Shown here piece after piece: positions 9,145-24,535 of a stretch of DNA of 34,350 bases. This DNA comes from Methanosarcinales archaeon. GTDB lineage: Archaea; Halobacteriota; Methanosarcinia; Methanosarcinales; Methanocomedenaceae. The translations under genes were made by a program, and so were the position numbers. Under the pieces are notes generated by a model that worked only from the letters and a program-made list of their open reading frames with translations, did not search any database and had not been told where the DNA came from. The stretch's first letter is position 1, and every line of letters begins with the position of its first letter. The DNA is taken from assembly GCA_021108405.1 (NCBI GenBank), contig JAIOQW010000269.1, forward strand, positions 1 to 34,350, read 5' to 3'.

Positions 9145-10002
9145 GTGAGTGGGGGACTTGTAACACTAAAATTGCTCATAACTTCAGTTATGATTGCAAT
9201 TTCAGGGGCGTTTCGGATCTATATAGCATATCTGTTAGTAGGATATGATGTTGTAATTAGCAATATTGCTGCAGTTTTTTTAATTATATATGCTATTTAT
9301 GCATTTGATAGGATCAAAGGAGGAGAAGAAGATAATATAAACCGAAAAGATTTGACAGGTGCAAGGAAGGATATTGCGTATATTGTTTGTGCATTTTCAT
9401 TAATCTGTGGTGTATTGATATTATTTTTACATGACCTTATCCTGGTTGTGATCATTCCTTTTTTTGTAGGTTACTTCTACAGCAAGAAGACCGTAATAGG
9501 AAAATATTCTTTTAAGCTAAAAGGAGGTATGGGGGCAAAGAACCTGATAGTAGCATTGACATGGGGCATATTTATTACGGGAGTTGTCATGAAAGGTCAC
9601 AGTGACCTGATTGCTGCTATATCAATTTTTTCTTTTCTTTTTATTAAGTCCTTTATAAATACTGTAATGGAAGATTTTTCTGATGTTACCGGAGATAAAA
9701 CAGTAGGATTGATGACATTACCTATCTGTTTAGGGGAGAAGAAGACAAGGTGTTTATTAATGGGAATCCATATGTTCGAGCACGTAATAATAGCGATCAT
9801 CATGATAAAGGGGATGTTAGAATTTGAAATAATCATTTTATTATCATGTTTTTTTTCAGGTGTGATCTACATTTTCTTTTTTACCGGAACATCGATCAAT
9901 ATTAATAGTTCTGGAATAAAGAATGTATCATACCAATTGTTCTATAGGTGGGAATTCTATGTAGCGGTTGGATTGCAAACGTTATCTAAAATATTAGTAT
10001 GA
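9145..10002 (+). CDS. UbiA-superfamily membrane prenyltransferase homologue, copy 1
   Basis: The protein (285 aa) is almost wholly hydrophobic with about eight to nine membrane helices. Two aspartate-rich loops mark the UbiA fold: FDRIKGGEED (D55 to D63), a divergent form of the first NDxxDxxxD motif, and DFSDVTGDKTVGLMTLP (D177, D180, D184), a good second motif. Such enzymes attach isoprenoid chains to aromatic or lipid acceptors; the substrate cannot be told. The start is GTG at 9145. The gene is one of several copies in this island; copy 2 at 10762 is a diverged paralogue, and 12768-12955 is an internally deleted version nearly identical to this one. It converges on the leftover 3' end of a regulator gene (10005). 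Confidence 0.8.
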   Translation: MSGGLVTLKLLITSVMIAISGAFRIYIAYLLVGYDVVISNIAAVFLIIYAIYAFDRIKGGEEDNINRKDLTGARKDIAYIVCAFSLICGVLILFLHDLILVVIIPFFVGYFYSKKTVIGKYSFKLKGGMGAKNLIVALTWGIFITGVVMKGHSDLIAAISIFSFLFIKSFINTVMEDFSDVTGDKTVGLMTLPICLGEKKTRCLLMGIHMFEHVIIAIIMIKGMLEFEIIILLSCFFSGVIYIFFFTGTSININSSGIKNVSYQLFYRWEFYVAVGLQTLSKILV

Positions 10003-10004
10003 AA

Positions 10005-10053
10005 TTATATTTTATTAGAATTATTCAGTAAATAATTGAAATTTTTATTCCCC
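10005..10053 (-). pseudogene. Vestigial 3' end of a FilR1-type regulator
   Basis: Read on the minus strand these bases give GNKNFNYLLNNSNKI followed by a stop, matching the last residues (FFNYLLNNSNKI) of the intact regulator at 12956-13732. The rest of that gene is gone. Its position, two bases after the prenyltransferase stop and in convergent orientation, is the same as in the intact pair, so copy 1 once had its own regulator. Confidence 0.7.
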
Positions 10054-10114
10054 TATCTTTAAGATACTGCAAATGGATATACAAAATCTAATAAATTATT
10101 TAATATAAAAATGA

Positions 10115-10220
10115 AAAAAATCCTCGCTAGCGCTCGGATTTTCTTGACTGAGGCTCTTAAAAGAGCCGAAGATTAGAAAATGTGAACAGAATGAGCATTT
10201 TCGATATATCAAGTTATACT
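10115..10220. repeat. Structured interspersed repeat, copy D
   Basis: The copy runs from a stem AAAATCC/GGATTTT with loop TCGCTAGCGCTC through a second stem GGCTCTT/AAGAGCC to the GAAAATG/CATTTTC hairpin shared with copy A, and ends TCGATATATCAAGTTATACT. As with copy C, the duplicated prenyltransferase upstream block starts a few bases further on. Confidence 0.7.
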
Positions 10221-10236
10221 AAAAAAAAGAAAAAAT

Positions 10237-10446
10237 GGACAAGACAAAACTAACCCCTACTCCTCGTCCGCTCGAATTTATGATTTATTTCAGTGTGGTT
10301 ATCACCACACTGTAATATATAGTACACCATAATAATATATATTTCAAACTAACACCGTGATTTCAATGAGACAATAGCATTATAATCCGATTGAAACATT
10401 ACAATCATAGTGAAATATTACCTGAAATTGATATATACGTATTATT
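10237..10446 (+). repeat. Duplicated upstream block of the prenyltransferase unit, copy 2
   Basis: This is the second copy of the block at 8932. Its hairpin is CAGTGTGGT-TATC-ACCACACTG (10291-10312), with a perfect nine-base-pair stem; relative to copy 1 the stem is kept. The A/T-rich part has changed more: the perfect palindrome of copy 1 is reduced to separate half-sites (GAAACATTACAAT, GAAATATTAC). Confidence 0.7.
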
Positions 10447-10482
10447 GTGAGTGGGGGGCTTGCAAGACTAAAATTACTCACA
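10447..10482 (+). pseudogene. 5' stub of a prenyltransferase gene
   Basis: GTGAGTGGGGGGCTTGCAAG and the following bases encode the first dozen residues (start, S-G-G-L, then R-L-K-L-L) of the UbiA-like protein, matching 9145 onward. The homology then stops and is replaced by the transposase fragment on the opposite strand. The promoter block in front of it is still present, so this is a truncated copy, not a chance match. Confidence 0.65.
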
Positions 10483-10493
10483 TGCGTGATTGG

Positions 10494-10690
10494 TTAAGTT
10501 CTCCATTCATCCATTAATCTCTTCCAATTTACATTCGGATCAACCTTACCTTTCAGCCTGCTGACAAAGAATCCACCATTTTCATAAATACGAGCGAAGG
10601 TATTGTGTTTATAAAATCCAAGATCAATTAATAGCATACGATTTTTTAACCATGGTTCTATCCGAAGTGTCTTAACTTTACTGCTAATAT
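10494..10690 (-). pseudogene. Fragment of an IS4-type DDE transposase
   Basis: On the minus strand the frame gives SSKVKTLRIEPWLKNRMLLI, then a DLGFYKHNTFARIYENGGFF segment and VSRLKGKVDPNVNWKRL, ending in a stop at 10494-10496. The LLIDLGFY and GGFFVSRLK parts are characteristic of IS4-like archaeal transposases around the second catalytic aspartate. Only about 65 residues remain, with no inverted repeats visible. The fragment separates the 5' stub from the upstream region of prenyltransferase copy 2 and probably took part in the rearrangement. Confidence 0.75.
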
Positions 10691-10761
10691 TGAAATTACA
10701 ATGGCTTTATAATATTACACCCCAATAAAAATATTAATAAGAAACTATATAATCAGTTAGA

Positions 10762-11616
10762 GTGAGTAGGGGAATTGCGACTTTAAGGCTACTTGTAGCT
10801 TCGATTTTAAATGGATCATATGGTGCTTTTATAATTTATATAGCTTATCTTATGGTTGGTTATAATATCAGGATATCTAATATTATTGCCGGGTTTCTTA
10901 TTATTTATGCTATCTATACATTTGATAGGGCAAAGGGAGGAGAAGAAGACGATATAAACCGAAAGGAACTTATTAAATCAAGAAAAGACATTGCTTATAT
11001 AATTTGTATACTTTCATCCTTAATAGGGGTATTGATCTTTTTCTTAAATGATCTGCTTTTTGTTGTAATAATTCCCTTAATTGCAGGTTACTTTTACAGT
11101 ATGAAGATAAATATTGGGAGTTTTACTATCAGGCTTAAAGGAGGCTGTGGTATGAAGAACCTGATTGTAGCTCTTGCATGGGGGATATTTATTACAGGAA
11201 TCGTTGTGAGAGTTAATACTGAATTTGTTACTATCATAGCGATTTTCTTATTTGTTTTTGTAAAAAATTTTATAACTACTGTAATGTATGATTTTCGTGA
11301 TATCAAAGGAGATAAAGTGGCTGGATTATTGACATTACCGATCTATTTTGGAGAACATATAACCAGGATCTTACTAATGAGTCTCCATCTCCTTGTGCAT
11401 TCACTGGTTGCCTTTGTCATGATAGCCGGTATATTAGAATTTAAATTTGTAATAATACTTAGCTGTTTTATTTCAGGTATTATCTATATTTTCTTTTTTG
11501 CAAAACCAATTGATTTAATAAATTCCAGAATTAAAAAAATACTATTCTATTTATCTTATAAAGGGGAACTCTATATGGCTTTAGGATTGCAAATAGTATA
11601 CTCAAACTTTATGTGA
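10762..11616 (+). CDS. UbiA-superfamily membrane prenyltransferase homologue, copy 2
   Basis: The 284-residue protein is a paralogue of copy 1, clearly related along its whole length but strongly diverged. It keeps both aspartate loops: FDRAKGGEEDD (D55, D63) and DFRDIKGDKVAGLLTLP. Eight to nine membrane helices are expected. The start is GTG, with a TATA-like CTATATAA only about 15 bases upstream and the half-site words GAAATTACAAT and TAATATTAC before it. Its last 15 bases overlap the end of the convergent regulator gene (11602-12411), so this is the best preserved copy of the convergent pair. Retained motifs suggest a working enzyme; the substrate is unknown. Confidence 0.8.
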   Translation: MSRGIATLRLLVASILNGSYGAFIIYIAYLMVGYNIRISNIIAGFLIIYAIYTFDRAKGGEEDDINRKELIKSRKDIAYIICILSSLIGVLIFFLNDLLFVVIIPLIAGYFYSMKINIGSFTIRLKGGCGMKNLIVALAWGIFITGIVVRVNTEFVTIIAIFLFVFVKNFITTVMYDFRDIKGDKVAGLLTLPIYFGEHITRILLMSLHLLVHSLVAFVMIAGILEFKFVIILSCFISGIIYIFFFAKPIDLINSRIKKILFYLSYKGELYMALGLQIVYSNFM

Positions 11617-12411
11617 ATTATGTAATAGATATTTTAACATATCCGTTCCCCAGGATATGGCAGAAGGATCCAGACTAACCCAATCTCTTTGAAAATCATA
11701 ACCACCATCCTTAAAAAATAATGTAATTGAAAAATAGCAATTTGTAACTATCATACTGAATTTAAGTTCATTGTTATAAATAAAAATTTTCACATTATTA
11801 AGGTTTAAGAATTCGTTTATTGAATTCGTGTATTCAGTTTCGGCTCTTTTATAGACATCTTGTGTAAGAATCAATGAAACTTCCTTTCCACTTAATGCTA
11901 ATTCCAAAAACATATCTGGCCATGATGGTCTAAATACAGGTGTCACTCCTTTTATCCAGTTTGATTGTGAAAGTTCCTGCAGGAATAGATTGTGAGGTTC
12001 GTATAATTCTTCCAGATTCAATTCATTCATCATACAATCCCCCAGTTCATGAAATCGTTTTAAAAGATGTTCTGGAATTATAGATATATCATGAGTATCT
12101 ATAAAATTCTCATTTTTTTCGATTATATCAATTATTTTTATCAGTGGATATAAATGTTCGTAAAGTAATCTACCTTTATCAGTTAATAAATATAACTTTC
12201 CTTCTTGATTAACAATATTCCTCTGCTCCAGCATCCTGATCTGAGGGATTATTCCCGGAGAGGTTACACTTAGTGATTGCTTGATTTCGGTCAGGGTCCT
12301 GGGTCCATTATGTAATAGAATAATAAGGTTCTTTCGTTTTTCAGAAAACAAAAGCAGATCCAATAATTTAGTTTTCATGTCAGATTCCAAATTCCCCACA
12401 AAAAGTGACAT
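11602..12411 (-). CDS. FilR1/DUF1724-type winged-helix transcriptional regulator, copy 1
   Basis: The protein (269 aa) has an N-terminal winged helix-turn-helix (about residues 13-85: KRKNLIILLHNGPRTLTEIK, then SVTSPGIIPQIRMLEQRNIV as recognition helix and wing) and a C-terminal alpha/beta domain of the methanogen FilR1 middle-domain family, ending in the usual ISWGTDMLKYLL. Such proteins are common in methanogens and are thought to sense small ligands or redox state. An ATG at 12378 would align better with the start of the paralogue at 13732; neither start has a clear ribosome-binding site. It converges on and overlaps prenyltransferase copy 2. Control of the prenyltransferase genes is likely from linkage but not shown. 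Confidence 0.82.
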   Translation of the reverse strand: MSLFVGNLESDMKTKLLDLLLFSEKRKNLIILLHNGPRTLTEIKQSLSVTSPGIIPQIRMLEQRNIVNQEGKLYLLTDKGRLLYEHLYPLIKIIDIIEKNENFIDTHDISIIPEHLLKRFHELGDCMMNELNLEELYEPHNLFLQELSQSNWIKGVTPVFRPSWPDMFLELALSGKEVSLILTQDVYKRAETEYTNSINEFLNLNNVKIFIYNNELKFSMIVTNCYFSITLFFKDGGYDFQRDWVSLDPSAISWGTDMLKYLLHNSHKV

Positions 12412-12767
12412 TTCGTAAAGGTTTATTATTACTTATCCTATTCTTCTTATTTATTTTTTTCTTTTCCGGTGACTGTTATATTATTTGTTAGTAAACTCAA
12501 ATTAACTGCGAATGAACACAGATAAACGCGGATACGCTATCTGAATGTCTGCGTTCATTTGCGTTTATCTGGTGCGACAAGAAGTTATATCATGAATTGC
12601 AGTAATGTCACCTGTTCCATTTAGGGTGGCCTTATTGTGGCATACAACTACAGTGATGTGGTTGTGTGAAGCCCACAAGACAATGTGGAAACCTCCAAAA
12701 ATCTAATTTGGACAATCTGCTAAGGTAAAAATACTGTGAAAAGTGTAATGCGAACCGTCGTAAGAGT
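12412..12767. other. Gene-free stretch with an inverted repeat
   Basis: No gene is supported here. Between 12508 and 12571 two overlapping inverted repeats occur: CAGATAAACGC (12519) with GCGTTTATCTG (12561), and CGAATGAAC with GTTCATTTG. Downstream, around 12680-12760, a plus-strand frame gives a cysteine-containing stretch (CGNLQKSNLDNL, then KYCEKCNANRRKS after a stop) that recalls the zinc ribbon of a transposase N-terminus, but it is too short and broken to assign. Confidence 0.45.
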
Positions 12768-12955
12768 CATAACTTCAGCTATGATTGCAATTTCAGGGGC
12801 GTTTCGGATCTATATAGCATATCTGTTAGTAGGATATGATGTTGTAATAGTAATAGTAGTTCCGGAATAAAGAATAAATCATACCAATTGTTCTATAGGT
12901 TGGAATTCTATGTAGCAGTTAGACTGCAAACGTTATCTAAAATATTAATATGAAA
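12768..12955 (+). pseudogene. Internally deleted prenyltransferase copy
   Basis: The first part (12768-12848) matches 9177-9257 almost base for base, and the second part (about 12852-12955) matches 9904-10004. About 640 bases of the middle, including both aspartate loops, are missing, and the start codon region is gone too. Downstream the match to copy 1 goes on into the regulator 3' end. The near identity to copy 1 means that the duplication is recent compared with the divergence of copy 2. Confidence 0.85.
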
Positions 12956-13732
12956 TTAGATTTTATTAGAATTATTCAGTAAATAATTAAAAAATTCAGT
13001 TCCCCAGGATATAGCAGAAGGTTCTGTACCAATCAAGTTTCTTTGGGAGTCATAACTTCCATCCTTAAAAAAAGGCGTAAATGAGAAATAGTGATCAGTA
13101 AATATCATAGTTAATTTTAATTTGTCGTTATATATATATATGTGAGTATTATTAAGGTCGAGAAATTCTGCTATTAAATTGTTGAATTTAGCTTCTGTTC
13201 TTTGGTAGACCTCAGGTGTAAGGATCAATATGATTTCTTTTTCTTGCTTAGCCAGCTGGAGAAAAAAATCAGGATATGATGGATTAAAAATAGGTGTAAC
13301 TGCTTTGATCCATTTGGATGATGACAAAATCTCAATAAATAAACGATGAGGTTCATAGATATTTTGGAGATCTACTTGATTCAATCCACATCCTTTTAAT
13401 TTATATAATTGTTTTAATAGAGCTTTTGGAATCATTAGTAGATCATGGGCATTAAAGAATTTCTGATTTTTTTCTACCAAGTTAAGTGTATCTACGAGTG
13501 GACATATGTAATAATCTGTAAGTATTTGACCTATATCAGTCAAAAAATACTCTTTACCTTTCTGAATAACTATATTTTTTTCCTCAAGAATCCTTATCTG
13601 TGGTATTATCGCAGGAGCTTTCACGTCAAGTGAATCCTTAATTTCAGTAAGGTTCTTAGCCCCATCTCTTAGAAATAATACAAGGTTTTTTCGTTTTTCA
13701 GAAAAAAAAAAGGCATCTAATAATTTAGTCAA
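12956..13732 (-). CDS. FilR1/DUF1724-type winged-helix transcriptional regulator, copy 2
   Basis: This 258-residue paralogue of 11602-12411 has the same layout: a winged helix over residues 5-75 (LTEIKDSLDVKAPAIIPQIR region) and the FilR1-type domain ending in ISWGTEFFNYLL. The start is probably TTG at 13732, preceded nine bases upstream by GGGGG; no in-frame ATG lies before it, and the paralogue has its start at the matching place. A TATA-like ATTATAAAA stands at about 13780-13788. Its 3' end is shared with the remnants near 10005 and adjoins the deleted prenyltransferase. It may therefore now act on the surviving copies elsewhere in the island. Confidence 0.82.
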   Translation of the reverse strand: MTKLLDAFFFSEKRKNLVLFLRDGAKNLTEIKDSLDVKAPAIIPQIRILEEKNIVIQKGKEYFLTDIGQILTDYYICPLVDTLNLVEKNQKFFNAHDLLMIPKALLKQLYKLKGCGLNQVDLQNIYEPHRLFIEILSSSKWIKAVTPIFNPSYPDFFLQLAKQEKEIILILTPEVYQRTEAKFNNLIAEFLDLNNTHIYIYNDKLKLTMIFTDHYFSFTPFFKDGSYDSQRNLIGTEPSAISWGTEFFNYLLNNSNKI

Positions 13733-18089: not shown

Positions 18090-19361
18090 TCATGCTATAA
18101 ATGTTTGTTCCCGACCAGGACCTACAGAAATATATTTAAACGGAACCTTGATCAATGACGTGAGTTTTTCTATATATGCAAGGGCACTATCAGGCAGATC
18201 ATTCATACTTTTAATACCTGTAAGGTCCTCATCCCATCCTGCCATATCTTCATATACCGGTATGCACCGTGCAAGGTCCGAAGTTGATTCGGGTGGATAG
18301 TCAAGTTTTTTTCCATCCAGTTCATATGCCACACACAGACGTATCGGGTGTATGGATGATAATACGTCCAATTTAGTCAGTACCAGGTCTGTATAACCAT
18401 TCAATGCTACTGCTTTTTTTGCAAGCGGGAGATCAAACCAGCCACACCGTCTCGGACGGCCGGTAGTGGTCCCGAACTCAGCGCCTGCCTGACGTAGCCG
18501 GTCTCCTATACTATCTTTAAGTTCAGTTGGCAGCGGGCCTTCACCTACCCTGGTGATATATGCTTTTACAATACCAACCACCTGGTCTACCCTGGTTGGT
18601 CCTACACCCAGGTTTGCACATGCTGATCCTGCAATACATGACGAGGAGGTTACAAATTTAGACGTACCGTGGATCACATCGAGGTATGTTCCCTGGGCAC
18701 CTTCTGCCAGTATGCTTTTACCATTATCAAGCGCAGCATTTACCTCATAGGATACATCAGTGATATATGAAGCAAACCTGCGTCCCAGATCACAATATGT
18801 TTTGATCCATGTTTCATCTTCCATGATAGAAGGGTCTCCATTCAATTCCTTGATCTGGGCTTCTTTCATTGGCTTTATTTCATTAAGCCGGTTACGCAAC
18901 TGCGCTTGGGTAGCAAGATCTGCCATCTGTATCTCATCCCTGGCTACCTTGTCTATATATGCATAACCAATACCACGTTTGGTAGTACCTATCTTATCAG
19001 TCCTTGCTGATTCTCTCAAGCCGTCCAGTTCTACATGATATGGCATGATGATGCTTGTCTTTGCATCAATTCCAAGCTTATGCTCATCTACATTTATACC
19101 ATTGTCCAACAGCATGTCAAATTCACTGGATAATGTCTGTGGATTTACTACAGTACCAGGACCGATAAGCAGTCTGGCATCCTGCAGTACCCCTGAAGGA
19201 GTAAGGTGCAGTTTGTATTTCTTGCCGTTCACTACTACAGTATGACCGGCATTGTCACCTCCCTGGAAACGAACTATAATATCATAGTTCTTTGTCATTA
19301 GATCAACGATCTTACCTTTACCTTCATCTCCGAACTGGGAACCAGTAATAATAGTAAACAT
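18090..19361 (-). CDS. purA: Adenylosuccinate synthetase
   Basis: PurA joins IMP and aspartate with GTP hydrolysis on the way to AMP. The N-terminus has the P-loop GSQFGDEGKGK with the catalytic Asp and the GGDNAGHTVV segment; later come IGTTKRGIGYAY, EGAQGTYLD and TTTGRPRRCGWFD. The 423 residues match the long, bacterial-type length rather than the short form (about 340) of some archaea. The frame is open to 19421, but the ATG at 19361 gives the expected start two residues before the first strand; the upstream 20 residues have no family match. No clear ribosome-binding site precedes it, so the transcript may be nearly leaderless. It is divergent from the PAP2 gene, 50 bases away. Confidence 0.95.
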   Translation of the reverse strand: MFTIITGSQFGDEGKGKIVDLMTKNYDIIVRFQGGDNAGHTVVVNGKKYKLHLTPSGVLQDARLLIGPGTVVNPQTLSSEFDMLLDNGINVDEHKLGIDAKTSIIMPYHVELDGLRESARTDKIGTTKRGIGYAYIDKVARDEIQMADLATQAQLRNRLNEIKPMKEAQIKELNGDPSIMEDETWIKTYCDLGRRFASYITDVSYEVNAALDNGKSILAEGAQGTYLDVIHGTSKFVTSSSCIAGSACANLGVGPTRVDQVVGIVKAYITRVGEGPLPTELKDSIGDRLRQAGAEFGTTTGRPRRCGWFDLPLAKKAVALNGYTDLVLTKLDVLSSIHPIRLCVAYELDGKKLDYPPESTSDLARCIPVYEDMAGWDEDLTGIKSMNDLPDSALAYIEKLTSLIKVPFKYISVGPGREQTFIA

Positions 19362-19411
19362 AATATGAAATAGTATGGGATTATTACATAATAAGATTTT
19401 GATGTGGTGAA

Positions 19412-20377
19412 ATGACCTCAACCTATATGATGACTATGATAATGCTGCCTCTTCTGGCATTGATGGTCTTTATCGGTTATTATATCTTAATACCGCTTAA
19501 GATCAGGGAACGAAATAAAAGGATACCTATCCGCAGGTTTATTATAGGTTTTCTACCTTTTTTCGTATCTGCTTTTTTTGTTTATATGCTTGTTCAGTCA
19601 CAATATACCATAATCAAAGTATTTGGCCTGGATATTAATACTAACTATACAAAATATATTATGATGATCGAAGGAGATATAGTACATCATTTTCAAAGTT
19701 TTGCAACACCAACATTAACGATCATAATGGGATTCGTTTACTTGATGATCTTTTCTTTTCTGTTGATCTTTACCTTTGTCATTTTGATATATACTAAGAA
19801 CCTTACCACTCTTGAGGAGTTCACTATTGCTTATATTATTACCTACCTTGTAGCCTTTCCGTTCTATATCTATTTTCCAGTCACAGTTACCGGACATGCA
19901 CTGTCCAATGTTGAACCTTTGCTGTATAATTTAAGCCCTATCATTGACGAAGGCGTTAGAGTCGTAGACCCATTTCTTGATAATGATTTTCCAAGTCTGC
20001 ATGCAGCACAGTCCATAATGGTTTTATTGATAGTAGTGTTCAGGACTAACCTTACGCGGTTTAAATTATTTGCAATTATTTCGACTATTGCCATCCTGTT
20101 CTCTACACTGTATCTTGGTATACACTGGATCAGCGATCTTGTTACCGGTTGTTTGCTGGCCCTGTTAGGTTATTATATTGCTATACACTATAGAAACAAG
20201 ATCTCAATGATAGTAAACAAGGTTTTAGTGACTATTGAAATGAGAACAGGTATAATAGATGATATTTTTTGTAATAATTGTCAAAAGAATATCCGGGTAA
20301 TTCCTCATAGTATATCTGTGAAGTGTCCTTATTGTGGTACGATAATGGAATATCATCCTCTTACATATGATCAATGA
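19412..20377 (+). CDS. PAP2-family membrane phosphatase with C-terminal zinc ribbon
   Basis: The protein (321 aa) has about six membrane helices and the PAP2 motifs FPSLHAAQS (near residue 193) and YLGIHWISDLVTG (near 235), whose two histidines form the phosphatase site; the first, KxxxxxxRP motif is not obvious in its usual place. Members remove phosphate from lipid or isoprenoid phosphates, or act as inositol-phosphate transferases. After the last helix there is a soluble tail of about 50 residues with CNNC and CPYCG, a zinc-ribbon that is unusual in this family. A GGTGA element lies directly before the ATG. A lipid substrate fits the membrane location, but which one cannot be told. Confidence 0.8.
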   Translation: MTSTYMMTMIMLPLLALMVFIGYYILIPLKIRERNKRIPIRRFIIGFLPFFVSAFFVYMLVQSQYTIIKVFGLDINTNYTKYIMMIEGDIVHHFQSFATPTLTIIMGFVYLMIFSFLLIFTFVILIYTKNLTTLEEFTIAYIITYLVAFPFYIYFPVTVTGHALSNVEPLLYNLSPIIDEGVRVVDPFLDNDFPSLHAAQSIMVLLIVVFRTNLTRFKLFAIISTIAILFSTLYLGIHWISDLVTGCLLALLGYYIAIHYRNKISMIVNKVLVTIEMRTGIIDDIFCNNCQKNIRVIPHSISVKCPYCGTIMEYHPLTYDQ

Positions 20378-20585
20378 TCTCGAGACTTTTTATTATTCTC
20401 TGGTGACAATTATATTTAAAATTAAGTTCATCTGATGTTATCCAATTTATATTATAGCCCATCTTCATCAGATTCCTATATAAATTCTTCTTTTTCTTTA
20501 TATAAATAATTTCTTACGCATCATACGATGCCCTGTCACCTATTGGATATGTTCAAATCCAAACTGCAACAAACACTACTATGAC

Positions 20586-21172
20586 ATGTTAATAGGTGTT
20601 ACTGGATCAGCAAATTACAGCAATGAATACATTGAAAAAATGAAATATGTAAGATATGACAGTATGTGCGCGTTATGGAATTCACGCATTACAGGTGAAA
20701 TATCCACTGAGGGCTTAACTGATACCTCAGGAAGAGCACCATGTCCAACAACTTTATGGAAATATAAACAAATAAAAGACAAAATATCAGCCCAAGAACT
20801 GATAAGTTAGGATATTGATTTCAATGGAGTATTGCACATCAATGGATATTGGATCAAAACCGGATGGAGAAAAGATATCGAAGCTCAATGTGAAAGAAAT
20901 TAACCGACCGGGAGTGAGAAAGGCCCAGGTAGATAGTTATTTATGTTGTAACTACAGAAGATAAAGTCGTCCTGTATTTCCAGATAACTAATACCATGCC
21001 AAGTTATTTCGAATTGATCCCTCTTCTAAACAGAATTAAAACTCGCATACCTGAAGGAGAGATTTTAAAATTTGTTTTCGATGAGGATAGTGCAATAATC
21101 GGTACAGTTACACACGTTTTACCTAATGTTTCACATTCATTCTGTGTATTCCATCAATTGAATTTCGATTAA
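20586..21172 (+). pseudogene. Decayed transposase (MULE/DDE type)
   Basis: One frame runs 20586-20807, meets a TAG stop, and continues as DIDFNGVLHINGYWIKTGWRKDIEAQ to a TAA near 20903. A shifted frame from 20945 gives VVTTEDKVVLYFQITN, MPSYFELIPLLNRIKTRI, FVFDEDSAIIGTVTHVLP and SHSFCVFHQL, ending at 21172. The first aspartate (DFNGVLHINGY), the second (FDED) and the C-X2-H of the FCVFH block belong to the catalytic core of such transposases. One nonsense codon and at least one frameshift, with no C-terminal part, show that it is dead. The remaining bases of 20378-20585 hold no recognisable gene. Confidence 0.7.
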
Positions 21173-21210
21173 ATCTGTTTGGTTTGGACACATATTTGAT
21201 TCAACCAGAA
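21162..21210 (+). repeat. 49-bp direct repeat, left copy
   Basis: ATTTCGATTAAATCTGTTTG and the following 29 bases match 22516-22564 at 47 of 49 positions. The left copy overlaps the last codons of the decayed transposase; weaker similarity (AAAATA...GTCTC/CGCTC) continues for about 15 bases beyond it. The pair brackets the three-gene peptide module. Confidence 0.85.
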
Positions 21211-21321
21211 TAAAATATAAACGCTCATATAGTATTAAATGTTGTTACATTTATTCAATTTTACCCCTTTCACATATAAAAGGTGGTAGTTGACAAGAAA
21301 AATAAAGAGTATCAACAGAAC

Positions 21322-21600
21322 ATGAGATATATAACGAAAGAAGATCGAACTGTAGCTGCATTAACCATTCTCTCAGTAATAGCACTGATGGGTGTGGTGA
21401 TGTTGCCAGGCGCAGTAGCTATCGAAGCTGATTGCTGGGTTGGAGTTGCCGCATATGCGGCAATCAACGGTGCTAATGTGCAACAAACGGCAGTAATAGG
21501 TCTAGCCGGAGCATATCATACAGCAGAATTGGGACTTATCGCGAGTTTCGTGGGAGGACCCGGCGCGGGTGCAGTAGTTAGCTTTGGAGTGGGCGCTTAA
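21322..21600 (+). CDS. Small secreted Gly/Ala-rich peptide, bacteriocin-like candidate
   Basis: The precursor (92 aa from the ATG at 21322; a GTG at 21283 would add 13) starts with charged residues (RYITKEDR), then a hydrophobic stretch VAALTILSVIALMGVVML and the signal-peptidase-like PGAVA. The predicted mature part is about 59 residues, over 40 percent Gly plus Ala (14 Ala, 11 Gly), with one cysteine and a GGPGAGA turn before the end. Size, composition and a leader, followed by a small multi-helix membrane protein and a SpoIIM-family protein, are what peptide bacteriocin loci of bacteria look like. I find no direct match to a known bacteriocin. No ribosome-binding site is clear before 21322, whereas AAAGGTGG lies upstream, near 21283. 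Confidence 0.6.
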   Translation: MRYITKEDRTVAALTILSVIALMGVVMLPGAVAIEADCWVGVAAYAAINGANVQQTAVIGLAGAYHTAELGLIASFVGGPGAGAVVSFGVGA

Positions 21601-21655
21601 CCAGTTATGGGAAATATTTCCCCCTTTTTATTTTTGCCAGAAGAGGTGGCATAGT

Positions 21656-22057
21656 ATGAAACGATACACGACTTCGAAGGAGTTTTATGAATTTGCAGCA
21701 GTAACTACTTTTGTTGTTATGGGCATTGTGGGCACCATCGTCTTCTATTCTACAACCAAGTTACCAGTTTATGTGGCCCTCCTGTCCATTGTGCTTGGAG
21801 CATTGTCTGGGATAGGCATGGGAGGGATAGTCACAGTTGGAGACAAAGCTAGACACTCCAATAAAATAGATTTCCTCAAACTTCTGATCAGTTTCATATT
21901 TTGGACGTTACCCTATTTAGGAATTTCTTACTTAATTGCAAGAGTAGACGAGCCCTACAATGTGATTCCGCTTGCATTATCCGGTATGTTAGCAGGGGTC
22001 GGACTCTATCTGCTTATCTGGCAAATGAAACATGGCTGGAACTCTAAGCGCGAATAA
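21656..22057 (+). CDS. Small four-helix membrane protein, immunity or export candidate
   Basis: The protein (133 aa) has four hydrophobic segments: about residues 12-33, 37-58, 72-93 and 101-120, with a basic loop (GDKARHSNK) in the middle and a basic C-terminus. The ATG at 21656 follows GAGGTGG by six bases, so it is preferred over an earlier in-frame ATG at 21584 that overlaps the peptide gene. I do not recognise the family. It lies between the secreted peptide and the SpoIIM-like gene, and small helical-bundle membrane proteins in that position often provide self-protection in bacteriocin loci; this role is inference from context. Confidence 0.65.
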   Translation: MKRYTTSKEFYEFAAVTTFVVMGIVGTIVFYSTTKLPVYVALLSIVLGALSGIGMGGIVTVGDKARHSNKIDFLKLLISFIFWTLPYLGISYLIARVDEPYNVIPLALSGMLAGVGLYLLIWQMKHGWNSKRE

Positions 22058-22095
22058 CGGATGGTTATGCACAGATAACAGGGATTTTTTATAAG

Positions 22096-22473
22096 ATGTG
22101 GAAATCAAATAACCATTTACGGCGCAATATATTCCTGATTATTTTTTCGACTATAATTTATTTTATTGGCTTTATATCAGGATGTCTTTTACTTTACTTC
22201 TTCAACTCAAACATACCAAGCTTAGAAATTTTTAGCTCGCTTAAAAATACACTTATCTTCGAAGACAGTCCAACAACTCTTGCAATTCTACAAAACAATG
22301 TTAATATAATTATATTCTTAATCTCAGGCTCATTCCTGGCTGGATTGACCACTTTTATTAACTTAATTTTTAATGGATATTTCTTTGGTGTATTCACGGG
22401 TCTGATCGGGGGGCTATATCCCGCATGGAAGGCATCGCGACTGAAGCCACTTGATGCGCTCCGGTATGAATAA
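22096..22473 (+). CDS. SpoIIM-family membrane protein fused to the tail of an ABC permease
   Basis: Residues 1-105 look like a truncated SpoIIM/DUF95 protein: an N-terminal helix, an extracellular-type loop, and then NNVNIIIFLISGSFLAGLTT with FINLIFNGYFFGVFTGL, the conserved asparagine-rich and NG motifs of the family. The last 20 residues switch to GLYPAWKASRLKPLDALRYE, the ending of MacB/FtsX-type ABC permeases. The family normally has further helices (about 170-200 aa), so the SpoIIM part has lost its C-terminal third. The simplest reading is a deletion that joined it in frame to a downstream permease gene. SpoIIM-like proteins occur in circular-bacteriocin loci. Whether the chimera works is unknown. 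Confidence 0.65.
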   Translation: MWKSNNHLRRNIFLIIFSTIIYFIGFISGCLLLYFFNSNIPSLEIFSSLKNTLIFEDSPTTLAILQNNVNIIIFLISGSFLAGLTTFINLIFNGYFFGVFTGLIGGLYPAWKASRLKPLDALRYE

Positions 22474-22515
22474 TACACAGAGAAAAACCAGTAACTTGGA
22501 CGAGACAGTTGAAAT

Positions 22516-22564
22516 ATTTCGGTTAAATCTGTTTGGTTTGGACGCATATTTGATTCAACCAGAA
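22516..22564 (+). repeat. 49-bp direct repeat, right copy
   Basis: This is the partner of 21162-21210, in the same orientation, 47 of 49 bases identical. It lies 43 bases after the end of the SpoIIM-permease fusion. The two copies enclose about 1.3 kb. Confidence 0.85.
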
Positions 22565-22650
22565 GAAAATAAAAAGTCTCATGATCTCTTACCCAACCTT
22601 TATAAGCCATAAAAGAATCTATAACCTTTTACAACAAGCCAGTTTCATCG

Positions 22651-22668
22651 GCGGGATAAAACTCCCGC
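22651..22668 (+). promoter_or_regulatory. Hairpin in the L15e leader
   Basis: GCGGGA-TAAAAC-TCCCGC forms a perfect six-base-pair stem about 65 bases before the L15e start. GC-rich structure stands out in an otherwise AT-rich leader, and more pairing (AGGCCTTTAACAGGCTGAACC) may follow. It could be a leader element for autoregulation of the ribosomal gene or part of a terminator for upstream genes; the lack of a T run speaks against the latter. Confidence 0.35.
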
Positions 22669-22733
22669 AGGGATGTGGCCTTTAACAGGCTGAACCGTGA
22701 AACCTGGATTATAATACAGAGGAGATTCGAAAC

Positions 22734-23324
22734 ATGGCAAGATCAATGTATAGTTATATTAGGGATGCCTGGAAGGACCCTGACAATACGTATACACACG
22801 AACTTAGATGGCACAGGCTTCAGGAATGGAGACGAGAAGCAGCAGTACAGAGGATTGATAAACCCACCCGATTAGACCGCGCCCGCAGTCTTGGTTATAA
22901 AGCCAAACAGGGTATTATTATGGCCAGAGTAGGTATCAGGCGAGGTAGTGCACGTAAACCAAGATATATACGTGGCCGCCGTACCAAGCGAATGGGCATG
23001 CGCAAGATCACACGTGGTAAAAGCCTTCAGCGTATTGCAGAAGAAAGAGCAGCACGTAAATTCCCTAATCTGCAAGTACTTAATTCATACTGGGTCGGCG
23101 AAGATGGCAGGCTCAAATGGTATGAGATCATTCTTGTAGATACGGCTCACCCGGTTATTAAGAGTGATCCTCACCTGAGTTGGCTATGCAGACCAAACCA
23201 GAAAGGACGTGTGTTCAGAGGCAAGACCAGTGCGGGAACAAAGGGACGAGGACAGCTAAAACGCGGTAAAGGTACTGAAAAGACCAGGCCAAGTATACGA
23301 TCACGCGGAAATCTTGGAAAGTGA
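22734..23324 (+). CDS. rpl15e: Large ribosomal subunit protein L15e
   Basis: The 196-residue, strongly basic protein has the L15e signatures near the N-terminus ([44 protein letters not shown]), [24 protein letters not shown] in the middle, and the [20 protein letters not shown] ending with a Gly/Lys/Arg-rich tail. The length is normal. A GAGGAG-like element stands eight to ten bases before the ATG. It opens the plus-strand superoperon; the next gene begins 15 bases later. Confidence 0.96.
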
Positions 23325-23339
23325 AGACTTTATTTAGGT

Positions 23340-23813
23340 ATGATCCATTACATATCTCTTCGCGCCAGTGCTCAAGCTACGGAAGATCCAGAGAAAGTAC
23401 GATCGGCAATTGGACTATTCCTTCCTCCTGCCGAAGATGAGTTAAAGCCAGAAGGATCTGACTTTATTAGTGAATATGATACCTCAGGTTACCATGGCAA
23501 CCGGATCATTCTAATGGAGGCTAAGCTCCATAAAAACAGACACACTAGATATGTGATAGACCTGATCAGGCAGCGTCTTGGAAAGCAAGAGATATCAGAG
23601 TTAGTTGACCAGATCCCATTGCGTGTGGATAATGACTGTAATTTGTATATCAGGTTCGATAAACAACAAGCTTTCCAGGGCAAGCTTGCAATGACCAATA
23701 CATCGGATGTGGTTCAACTTCGGATAAAACTTAAAGCTTATCCTGCTAAGTATGAGAAAGCAATAGAGGTTGCTCGATCATTATTTAATATGGAGGATCA
23801 GGCATGGGTATAA
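23340..23813 (+). CDS. Archaeal RNA-binding protein (DUF54, exosome-linked)
   Basis: The protein (157 aa) belongs to a small archaeal family with an L5-like RNA-binding fold that is regularly encoded beside the exosome and RNase P genes. Family features seen here are the N-terminal IHYISLRASAQATEDPEKVRSAI, GYHGNRIILMEAKLHKNRHTRYVIDLI, and DNDCNLYIRFDKQQAFQGKL. It overlaps rnp3 by ten bases, so translation is likely coupled. The precise role is not known; a helper role in RNA processing is inferred from the constant neighbourhood. Confidence 0.85.
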   Translation: MIHYISLRASAQATEDPEKVRSAIGLFLPPAEDELKPEGSDFISEYDTSGYHGNRIILMEAKLHKNRHTRYVIDLIRQRLGKQEISELVDQIPLRVDNDCNLYIRFDKQQAFQGKLAMTNTSDVVQLRIKLKAYPAKYEKAIEVARSLFNMEDQAWV

Positions 23814-24535
23814 TAAAACGCTCAAAGTTCTTTGACTTAAATGTTCACTCACTGCCTGACTATGCTGATTCTCCGGGAAGAATGGTACTGGAAGCAAAAG
23901 AGATGGCATATTCCGGTATATGCTTAACTTCTCTTAATCCTTCGAACTCATTCTATGATCCTAATATTTCATCTTCTTTTTATAAAAATTTTGAAATATA
24001 CAATGGAATCGAGATCCAGGTAAACAATATATCCGCCCTTAACAAACAGGTAAATAGGTTAATAGATAAGGTAGATATTATATTAGTCAGCGGAGGTCAC
24101 GAGAAAATTAACAGGGCAGCACTTGAGAACCAGAAGGTTGATATTCTTGCTCGTCCTGCATCCCGTGGTAAACCTCTCAATCATGTTCTTGCAAAAGCTG
24201 CTGCTGACAATGGTGTGGCAATTGATTTCAATATAGATGCTTTAACCATGCATGCAAGGGGGTCCAGGATCAATACACTTGCAGCTATGCGCCTTAATGT
24301 CAGACTGACCAGGAAATATGATGCATCCATGGTCCTGACCAGCAGTGCAAGGTCACACTATGACCTGCGCGGACCTAGAGAGATGATGGCATTAGGCATG
24401 CTCATGGGTATGACACAGGATGAAGCTCTTTGTGCTCTATCAATCGTACCTCAAGCGATCATTAAAAGGAATACGAATAAAAATCGCATTATGAAAGGCG
24501 TGGAAATTGTAGATATGGTAGAAGTGGTCCAATGA
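23804..24535 (+). CDS. rnp3: Ribonuclease P protein component 3 (Rpp30)
   Basis: Rnp3 pairs with Rnp2 to activate the catalytic RNA of RNase P, which trims tRNA 5' ends. The 243-residue protein has the TIM-barrel Rpp30 layout: FDLNVHSLPDYADSP at the start, the VDIILVSGGHEKINRAALENQKVDIL segment, and SSARSHYDLRGPREMMALGMLMGM near the end, where the conserved Asp-Leu-Arg/Pro-Arg stretch sits. It overlaps the gene before it by ten bases and rnp2 by four, in the order conserved in Euryarchaeota. Confidence 0.93.
   Translation: MGIIKRSKFFDLNVHSLPDYADSPGRMVLEAKEMAYSGICLTSLNPSNSFYDPNISSSFYKNFEIYNGIEIQVNNISALNKQVNRLIDKVDIILVSGGHEKINRAALENQKVDILARPASRGKPLNHVLAKAAADNGVAIDFNIDALTMHARGSRINTLAAMRLNVRLTRKYDASMVLTSSARSHYDLRGPREMMALGMLMGMTQDEALCALSIVPQAIIKRNTNKNRIMKGVEIVDMVEVVQ

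Follow-up and report, generated by a model that had tools for sequence, protein, structure and literature searches.

Why does a Methanosarcinales archaeon carry, inside a transposable element, three small genes of the kinds that bacteria group in bacteriocin loci? The genes lie on a 34,350-nucleotide stretch of contig JAIOQW010000269.1, the whole of which is referred to here as the window. They encode a leader-bearing peptide, a four-helix membrane protein and a SpoIIM-like protein. A first-pass annotation, made without database searches, had taken them for an acquired module and possibly for a new archaeocin family. We related the module to other archaeal genomes and to known systems. With rather better than even confidence, we propose that the module is one of a family of bacteriocin-like archaeal cassettes, found mainly in Archaeoglobi, and that it was brought in as cargo of a transposable element of the Mutator-like element (MULE) type.

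The peptide and its SpoIIM-associated family

The peptide, four-helix and SpoIIM-like genes are consecutive on the plus strand, and all three reading frames are open. The 92-codon peptide gene encodes a hydrophobic leader that ends in AVA, followed by a 59-residue remainder rich in Gly, Ala and Val, and cleavage is predicted to fall after this AxA motif. The 133-residue four-helix protein is likewise encoded as first described. A search of 238 genomes of the class found the peptide in two, that of the window and G027, which belongs to another family of the order. The G027 peptide is 56% identical to that of the window (E 1.2e-24), and the three genes of its module follow one another as they do in the window. 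An alternative GTG start of the window peptide at 21283 is not kept in G027, where an indel removes it, and therefore the ATG at 21322 is the likely start. A third match in the class (G237), a 185-residue membrane open reading frame (ORF), was judged not credible.

Outside the class, a two-sequence profile led to short ORFs in a single family of the phylum, f10. With an eight-sequence profile we obtained 41 matches, and 21 of the 59 genomes of a second class, which we take to be Archaeoglobi, carried the peptide; several of these carrier genomes are single contigs. When a 24-sequence profile was run against 394 genomes of the phylum, strong matches were confined to this second class and the window's genome, and the few others were weak and lay in longer ORFs. 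The credible homologues are free-standing short ORFs of about 85-120 residues and not pieces of longer proteins; weak matches in long or unrelated short ORFs (L012, L014, L025, L177) were rejected on reading. Relatives of the peptide were not found in plasmids and phages (by tblastn), in IMG/VR or in GTDB contigs, nor relatives of the four-helix protein in GTDB contigs; such contig scans pick up nothing but close relatives, and the genome of the window may not be among the contigs scanned.

The peptide is tied to the other two genes well beyond the window. In 23 of the 26 distinct full-length peptide genes, a SpoIIM gene follows on the same strand within 1.5 kb, and in the Archaeoglobi cassettes its product matches PF01944 (E 2.1e-24). 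A small membrane ORF of 56-194 residues with one to six hydrophobic segments stands between peptide and SpoIIM in 20 of these 23 by script and in a 21st (L122) by eye. One genome (G324) has three peptide/partner/SpoIIM cassettes in tandem (L119 6514-12363). Yip1 genes adjoin many cassettes, usually in divergent orientation, and at one locus (L190) the SpoIIM gene is followed in a row by genes for a 470-residue secreted protein, a MacB-type ATPase and an FtsX permease. The tandem cassettes of G324 are interspersed with PIN and AF2212-like toxin-antitoxin genes and with divergent Yip1 genes. Upstream of the intact cassette in L190 (6831-7752) is a second, apparently decayed one, in which a gene for a 140-residue membrane protein is followed by a SpoIIM gene that lacks its C-terminal end.

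The two parts of the peptide differ sharply in conservation. Over 25 peptides, mean pairwise identity was 67% across the 18 positions of the leader, and the cores reached 32%, as against 28% for shuffled cores; cassettes 1 and 3 of G324 combine an identical leader with unrelated cores. The ratio of non-synonymous to synonymous substitution rates (dN/dS) between the window and G027 is also lower for the leader (0.26) than for the core (0.81). As cut, the cores have 51-74 residues, with about 18% Gly and 21% Ala. SpoIIM shows a comparable division between cassettes, with 27-49% identity in the N-terminal half and 80-92% in the C-terminal half. Contacts with the individual peptide or immunity protein may therefore fall to the N-terminal half, and those with a shared partner to the C-terminal half. 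In G324 the near-identical C-terminal halves beside divergent N-terminal halves suggest gene conversion. The four-helix protein of the window is homologous to the partner gene product of a cassette in G370 (E 7.5e-8), and its closest counterparts are the partners of those peptides that most resemble the window peptide (z 8.8, 5.9 and 5.5). A constant leader, an exchangeable core of membrane type, a variable small membrane partner, a constant protein of presumed processing or export function, tandem copies and a patchy distribution together are the architecture of bacteriocin loci. Based on this pattern, we think that the cassettes probably work like bacteriocins.

The four-helix gene is not confined to the module, since a paralogue stands alone in the window's genome (G000:C3) and in a second genome of the genus (G016). 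In both it lies between purQ and a mechanosensitive-channel-like gene, with no peptide gene (L004 8268-8714, L008 806-1252). Single-sequence AlphaFold2 models of the peptide and the four-helix protein are all-helical and of low confidence (predicted local distance difference test scores, pLDDT, of 59 and 64). Resemblances of the peptide to MSP1_alpha_C, NeuD, NolX and the glycine zipper, and of the four-helix protein to K1 glycoprotein, signal peptidase and TraX, were set aside as compositional, with scores far under the curated cutoffs where these are shown.

A MULE-type element with a three-gene cargo

Positions 20382-22580 of the window are a 2.2-kb MULE-type (IS256/Mutator-like) transposable element that carries the three genes as cargo (Table 1). 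Its termini are 23-bp inverted repeats, GAGACTTTTTATT.. and ..AATAAAAAGTCTC, and an 8-bp duplication, ATGATCTC, flanks them. G016, the sole other genome of the genus searched, has the empty site: window positions 19028-20381 join 22581-24000 directly, at 91-92% identity and with the 8 bp shared, and the PAP2 phosphatase gene upstream is contiguous with the gene for ribosomal protein L15e downstream. The same two genes are adjacent in G009, of the same family. Because an empty site, a target duplication and inverted repeats coincide, the acquisition suspected at first is established: the module entered this genome horizontally, by transposition.

A transposase domain, inverted repeats and a duplication of 8-9 bp, the marks of MULE/IS256-type elements, are all found here, as in composite or Pack-MULE-like elements, with the domain present as a sub-threshold remnant. 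The window element departs from these in its broken transposase and in its three-gene passenger, which sits between two copies of the right end. The dead transposase described beside the module is this MULE fragment, directly upstream of the cargo. A longer relative of it elsewhere in the genome (G000:C198) matches at 77% over window positions 20927-21160 and includes an ORF of 223 codons that gives this MULE match too. The same inverted repeats also delimit a copy of about 210 bp that resembles a miniature inverted-repeat transposable element (MITE; G000:C6, L005 6840-7050). A YcaO/TfuA gene pair lies about 1.5 kb away from this copy, and repeated genes for secreted, C39-peptidase-like proteins are nearby.

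The first-pass annotation had placed the module between direct repeats. These exist (21162-21228 and 22516-22582; 67 nt, 91% identical), but we rejected them as the bounds of an integrated cassette; both are right-end copies of an insertion sequence (IS)-type element, and the mobile unit is larger than had been noted. Homology to the G027 module begins just past the inner right end and stops at the stop codon of the third gene. The simplest reading is that an operon was trapped between two right ends and then moved as one element.

That third gene had been assigned to the SpoIIM family, which holds for its N-terminal half and not for its end. The match to PF01944 covers residues 19-105 (E 3.1e-4) and, at 21.1 bits, stays under the cutoff of 26.9. 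The last 27-28 or so residues are the C-terminus of a LolCE/MacB-type permease (TIGR02212, E 3e-4), and this FtsX tail is 78-80% identical in DNA to the end of an FtsX gene on the G027 contig. In G027, SpoIIM is likewise fused to an FtsX tail at a different breakpoint (window 22096-22473, L026 3391-3881), and that tail is 96.8% identical to the end of a second FtsX gene on the same contig. A random local accident is a weakened explanation for the window fusion given the similar one at another breakpoint; the history would fit either one ancestral fusion with later gene conversion in G027 or two truncations that occurred separately. The gene order of L190 would be a natural source of the tail, through deletion of the DNA between SpoIIM and FtsX.

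The G027 contig also bears Yip1 genes and an FtsX C-terminal domain. Upstream of its peptide module and on the same strand (L026 5079-8924) are genes for an ABC-2-type ATPase and permease, three small membrane proteins and an XRE-type regulator. Elsewhere in the window, at 9145-11616 and 11602-13732, two paralogous membrane-protein genes (285 and 284 residues) are followed by two paralogous regulator-like genes (269 and 258 residues) on the opposite strand.

Table 1. Features of the element and its cargo, in window positions.
Feature	Positions	Strand	Remarks
Left target-site duplication ATGATCTC	20374-20381		Empty site in G016
Left terminal inverted repeat GAGACTTTTTATTATTCTCTGGT	20382-20404	+	Inverted repeat with 22558-22586; left ends recur elsewhere in genome
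Open stretch within transposase region, 74 codons	20586-20810	+	Without Pfam match
MULE-type transposase remnant, 58 codons	20996-21172	+	PF10551 E 1.4e-4, under gathering score
Inner copy of right end	21162-21228	+	Direct repeat; G027 homology begins close behind
Precursor peptide gene, 92 aa	21322-21600	+	ATG 21322; leader about residues 1-33, core about 34-92
Predicted mature core, 59 residues	21421-21597	+	Gly/Ala/Val-rich; AxA motif before it; variable part of alignment
Four-helix membrane protein, 133 aa, candidate cognate immunity protein	21656-22057	+	Four helices, low-confidence model; homologue of G370 partner
SpoIIM-like gene, 125 codons	22096-22473	+	Chimera of SpoIIM N-half and FtsX/MacB-type tail
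N-terminal half of SpoIIM gene	22096-22389	+	PF01944 residues 19-105; 84.6% DNA identity to G027 SpoIIM over 260 bp
3' end of FtsX/MacB-type permease gene, fused in frame to SpoIIM half	22384-22473	+	TIGR02212 residues 99-125, E 3e-4
Outer right end, including right terminal inverted repeat 22558-22580	22516-22580	+	Also right end of MITE-like copy G000:C6
Right target-site duplication ATGATCTC	22581-22588		Empty site in G016

Relation to known systems

SpoIIM is reported to be class-defining for the circular bacteriocins of bacteria (PMC13289728, PMC6131525, PMC5695211). For leucocyclicin Q, loss of the DUF95 protein is reported to have left the mature peptide inside the cells (cited in PMC7132975). 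The cerecyclin cluster includes genes for a DUF95 protein, a YIP1 protein and an ATP-binding cassette (ABC) transporter, and a 2020 survey placed circular-bacteriocin precursors in Firmicutes, Actinobacteria and Thermotogae (PMC8534725). The archaeal loci resemble these systems (such as AS-48, leucocyclicin Q and cerecyclin) in that the precursor is short and joins a leader to a hydrophobic core some 60-70 residues long, and in the presence of SpoIIM/DUF95, entire in the Archaeoglobi cassettes and reduced to an N-terminal half under the Pfam cutoff in the window. The small membrane immunity protein of circular bacteriocins has a candidate counterpart in the small variable membrane gene, and, as in cerecyclin, a YIP1 protein accompanies many archaeal cassettes and an ABC transporter one of them (L190).

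If the cassettes work in a related way, gene 1 would encode a precursor whose Sec-like leader is conserved and whose hydrophobic core, some 60 residues long and rich in Gly and Ala, is hypervariable. The released core would insert into or act on the membranes of competing archaea, and the variable small membrane protein of gene 2 would shield the producer as a cognate immunity protein. SpoIIM, the YknW-like Yip1 protein and a MacB-type ABC transporter would then be the machinery that matures the peptide, exports it or clears it from the membrane. The YknWXYZ system of Bacillus subtilis protects against the SDP peptide. Like it, the loci have Yip1 neighbors that match the YknW model (28-43 bits against a cutoff of 110), a likeness at the level of the family only, and L190 combines a MacB-type ATPase with an FtsX permease, as YknYZ does; the 470-residue secreted protein of L190 does not match YknX.

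Several results weigh against this explanation. The peptides had no match to a known bacteriocin family, including those of the circular bacteriocins, in Pfam/NCBIfam, and none among solved structures in the PDB, in agreement with the lack of any recognized match reported at the outset. An ATPase with FtsX downstream of SpoIIM was found in one of 20 second-class stretches, L190, and most cassettes, like the window, have no directly adjacent ABC ATPase. The cores carry a net charge of -5 to 0 and are thus neutral to acidic, unlike many cationic bacteriocins. Across the full set of cassettes without near-duplicates, core and partner co-vary weakly (Mantel r 0.20; 77 of 5000 permutations). Finally, the C-terminal half of SpoIIM, which in intact proteins of related cassettes bears HGIFEIPAI or a close variant, is lost from the window copy. 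We do not claim membership in the circular bacteriocins, because a sequence match is lacking and most cassettes have no adjacent ATP-binding protein; a further difference is that the hosts are archaea.

The Pfam/NCBIfam scans turned up no match to an archaeocin either, the halocin C8 family not having been compared specifically. Outside haloarchaea and Sulfolobales, few families of archaeocins have been described so far.

Part of the system has been described before. Makarova et al. 2014 proposed a membrane-associated defence for SpoIIM cassettes (PMC4158269), and Makarova et al. 2015 grouped arCOG01996 SpoIIM with Yip1 and small membrane proteins and argued for membrane remodelling from SpoIIM and yeast Yip1p (PMC5898192). 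The two papers describe cassettes of arCOG01996 and arCOG02054 (Yip1) in Archaeoglobi, Methanococci and Thermococci, with small, fast-evolving membrane proteins and a SalXY-type ABC transporter (PMC4158269, PMC5898192). Those cassettes are very probably the Archaeoglobi loci studied here, and SpoIIM with small diverged membrane proteins and Yip1 is present both in these loci and in G027; the window copy differs in lacking Yip1, the transporter and half of SpoIIM. The main-text passages compared in PMC4158269 and PMC5898192 do not mention the precursor peptide. The SpoIIM/Yip1 part was already described; as far as these passages go, the peptide family has apparently gone unrecognized. Makarova et al. 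2019 (mBio 00715-19), which reportedly treats archaeal antimicrobial peptides, is the likeliest place for an earlier report and the main risk to novelty.

Alternative explanations and significance

The remodelling proposal would make SpoIIM, Yip1 and the small membrane proteins a structural complex, perhaps for vesicles, with the peptide as a subunit. It draws on the grouping and the yeast Yip1p argument of PMC5898192; we consider it unlikely, given that a conserved leader joined to a core of near-random identity is unexpected of a structural subunit, as are tandem cassettes with interchangeable cores, and that the Yip1 genes here match the YknW family. If the 2014 proposal of defence (PMC4158269) is extended to the peptide, it could be an intracellular toxin that acts on the host membrane upon infection, with the small membrane protein as antitoxin. 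The AF2212-like and PIN genes between the tandem cassettes suit this idea, yet the leader, conserved and ending in an AxA-like site, points to export, and PADLOC gave no match to the cassette; we hold it to be quite improbable. Pheromone-like signalling, with the variable core serving as a signal specific to the strain and the small membrane protein acting as the receptor for it, would account for a secretable, variable peptide next to a variable membrane partner. The Archaeoglobi loci read have no consistent sensor kinase or regulator as neighbor, however, and the cores are long and strongly hydrophobic, which makes a signal a very doubtful interpretation. The bacteriocin-like explanation is the one we retain for the family.

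For the window copy the issue is whether anything still works. A relic in a broken transposon, dead as cargo, has close to an even chance in our view and is compatible with bacteriocin function in the family at large. Its transposase is broken, its SpoIIM is halved and fused to an FtsX tail, and neither an exporter nor Yip1 was found within the window, so that the module may be silent cargo or may supply peptide and immunity only; in the G027 copy both the four-helix and the SpoIIM gene are frameshifted. Against complete decay stand the three open frames and dN/dS values (window versus G027) below 1 for the leader (0.26), the four-helix gene (0.51) and the SpoIIM half (0.48), with 0.81 for the core, all of them rough values from short stretches that average over the whole history. 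The window cassette is probably a decayed passenger, impaired and still keeping the peptide and putative immunity genes.

Taken together, the first proposal of a bacteriocin-like peptide that goes with SpoIIM gains support from the wider family, with activity and any cyclization conjectural. Of the two outcomes that the first-pass annotation had named as refutations, homologues that are parts of longer unrelated proteins and a peptide gene that never accompanies the two membrane genes in other genomes, neither came about. SpoIIM/DUF95 is among the commonest families in archaeal dark-matter islands, with 17 in islands (PMC4158269), and has had no agreed role there. The tie between SpoIIM and a peptide of constant leader and hypervariable core turns a vague guess at a membrane system into a directly testable archaeocin hypothesis, and the window clearly exemplifies the carriage of such a cassette by a transposable element in another class of archaea. 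We tentatively suggest, at somewhat short of even confidence, that Archaea, chiefly Archaeoglobi, have their own class of SpoIIM-dependent, possibly head-to-tail cyclized, membrane-active bacteriocins with a conserved leader, an exchangeable core and a cognate immunity protein. If this is true, an archaeal bacteriocin class would account for a long-standing puzzle, the SpoIIM/Yip1 dark-matter cassettes, which also cross archaeal classes on transposons.

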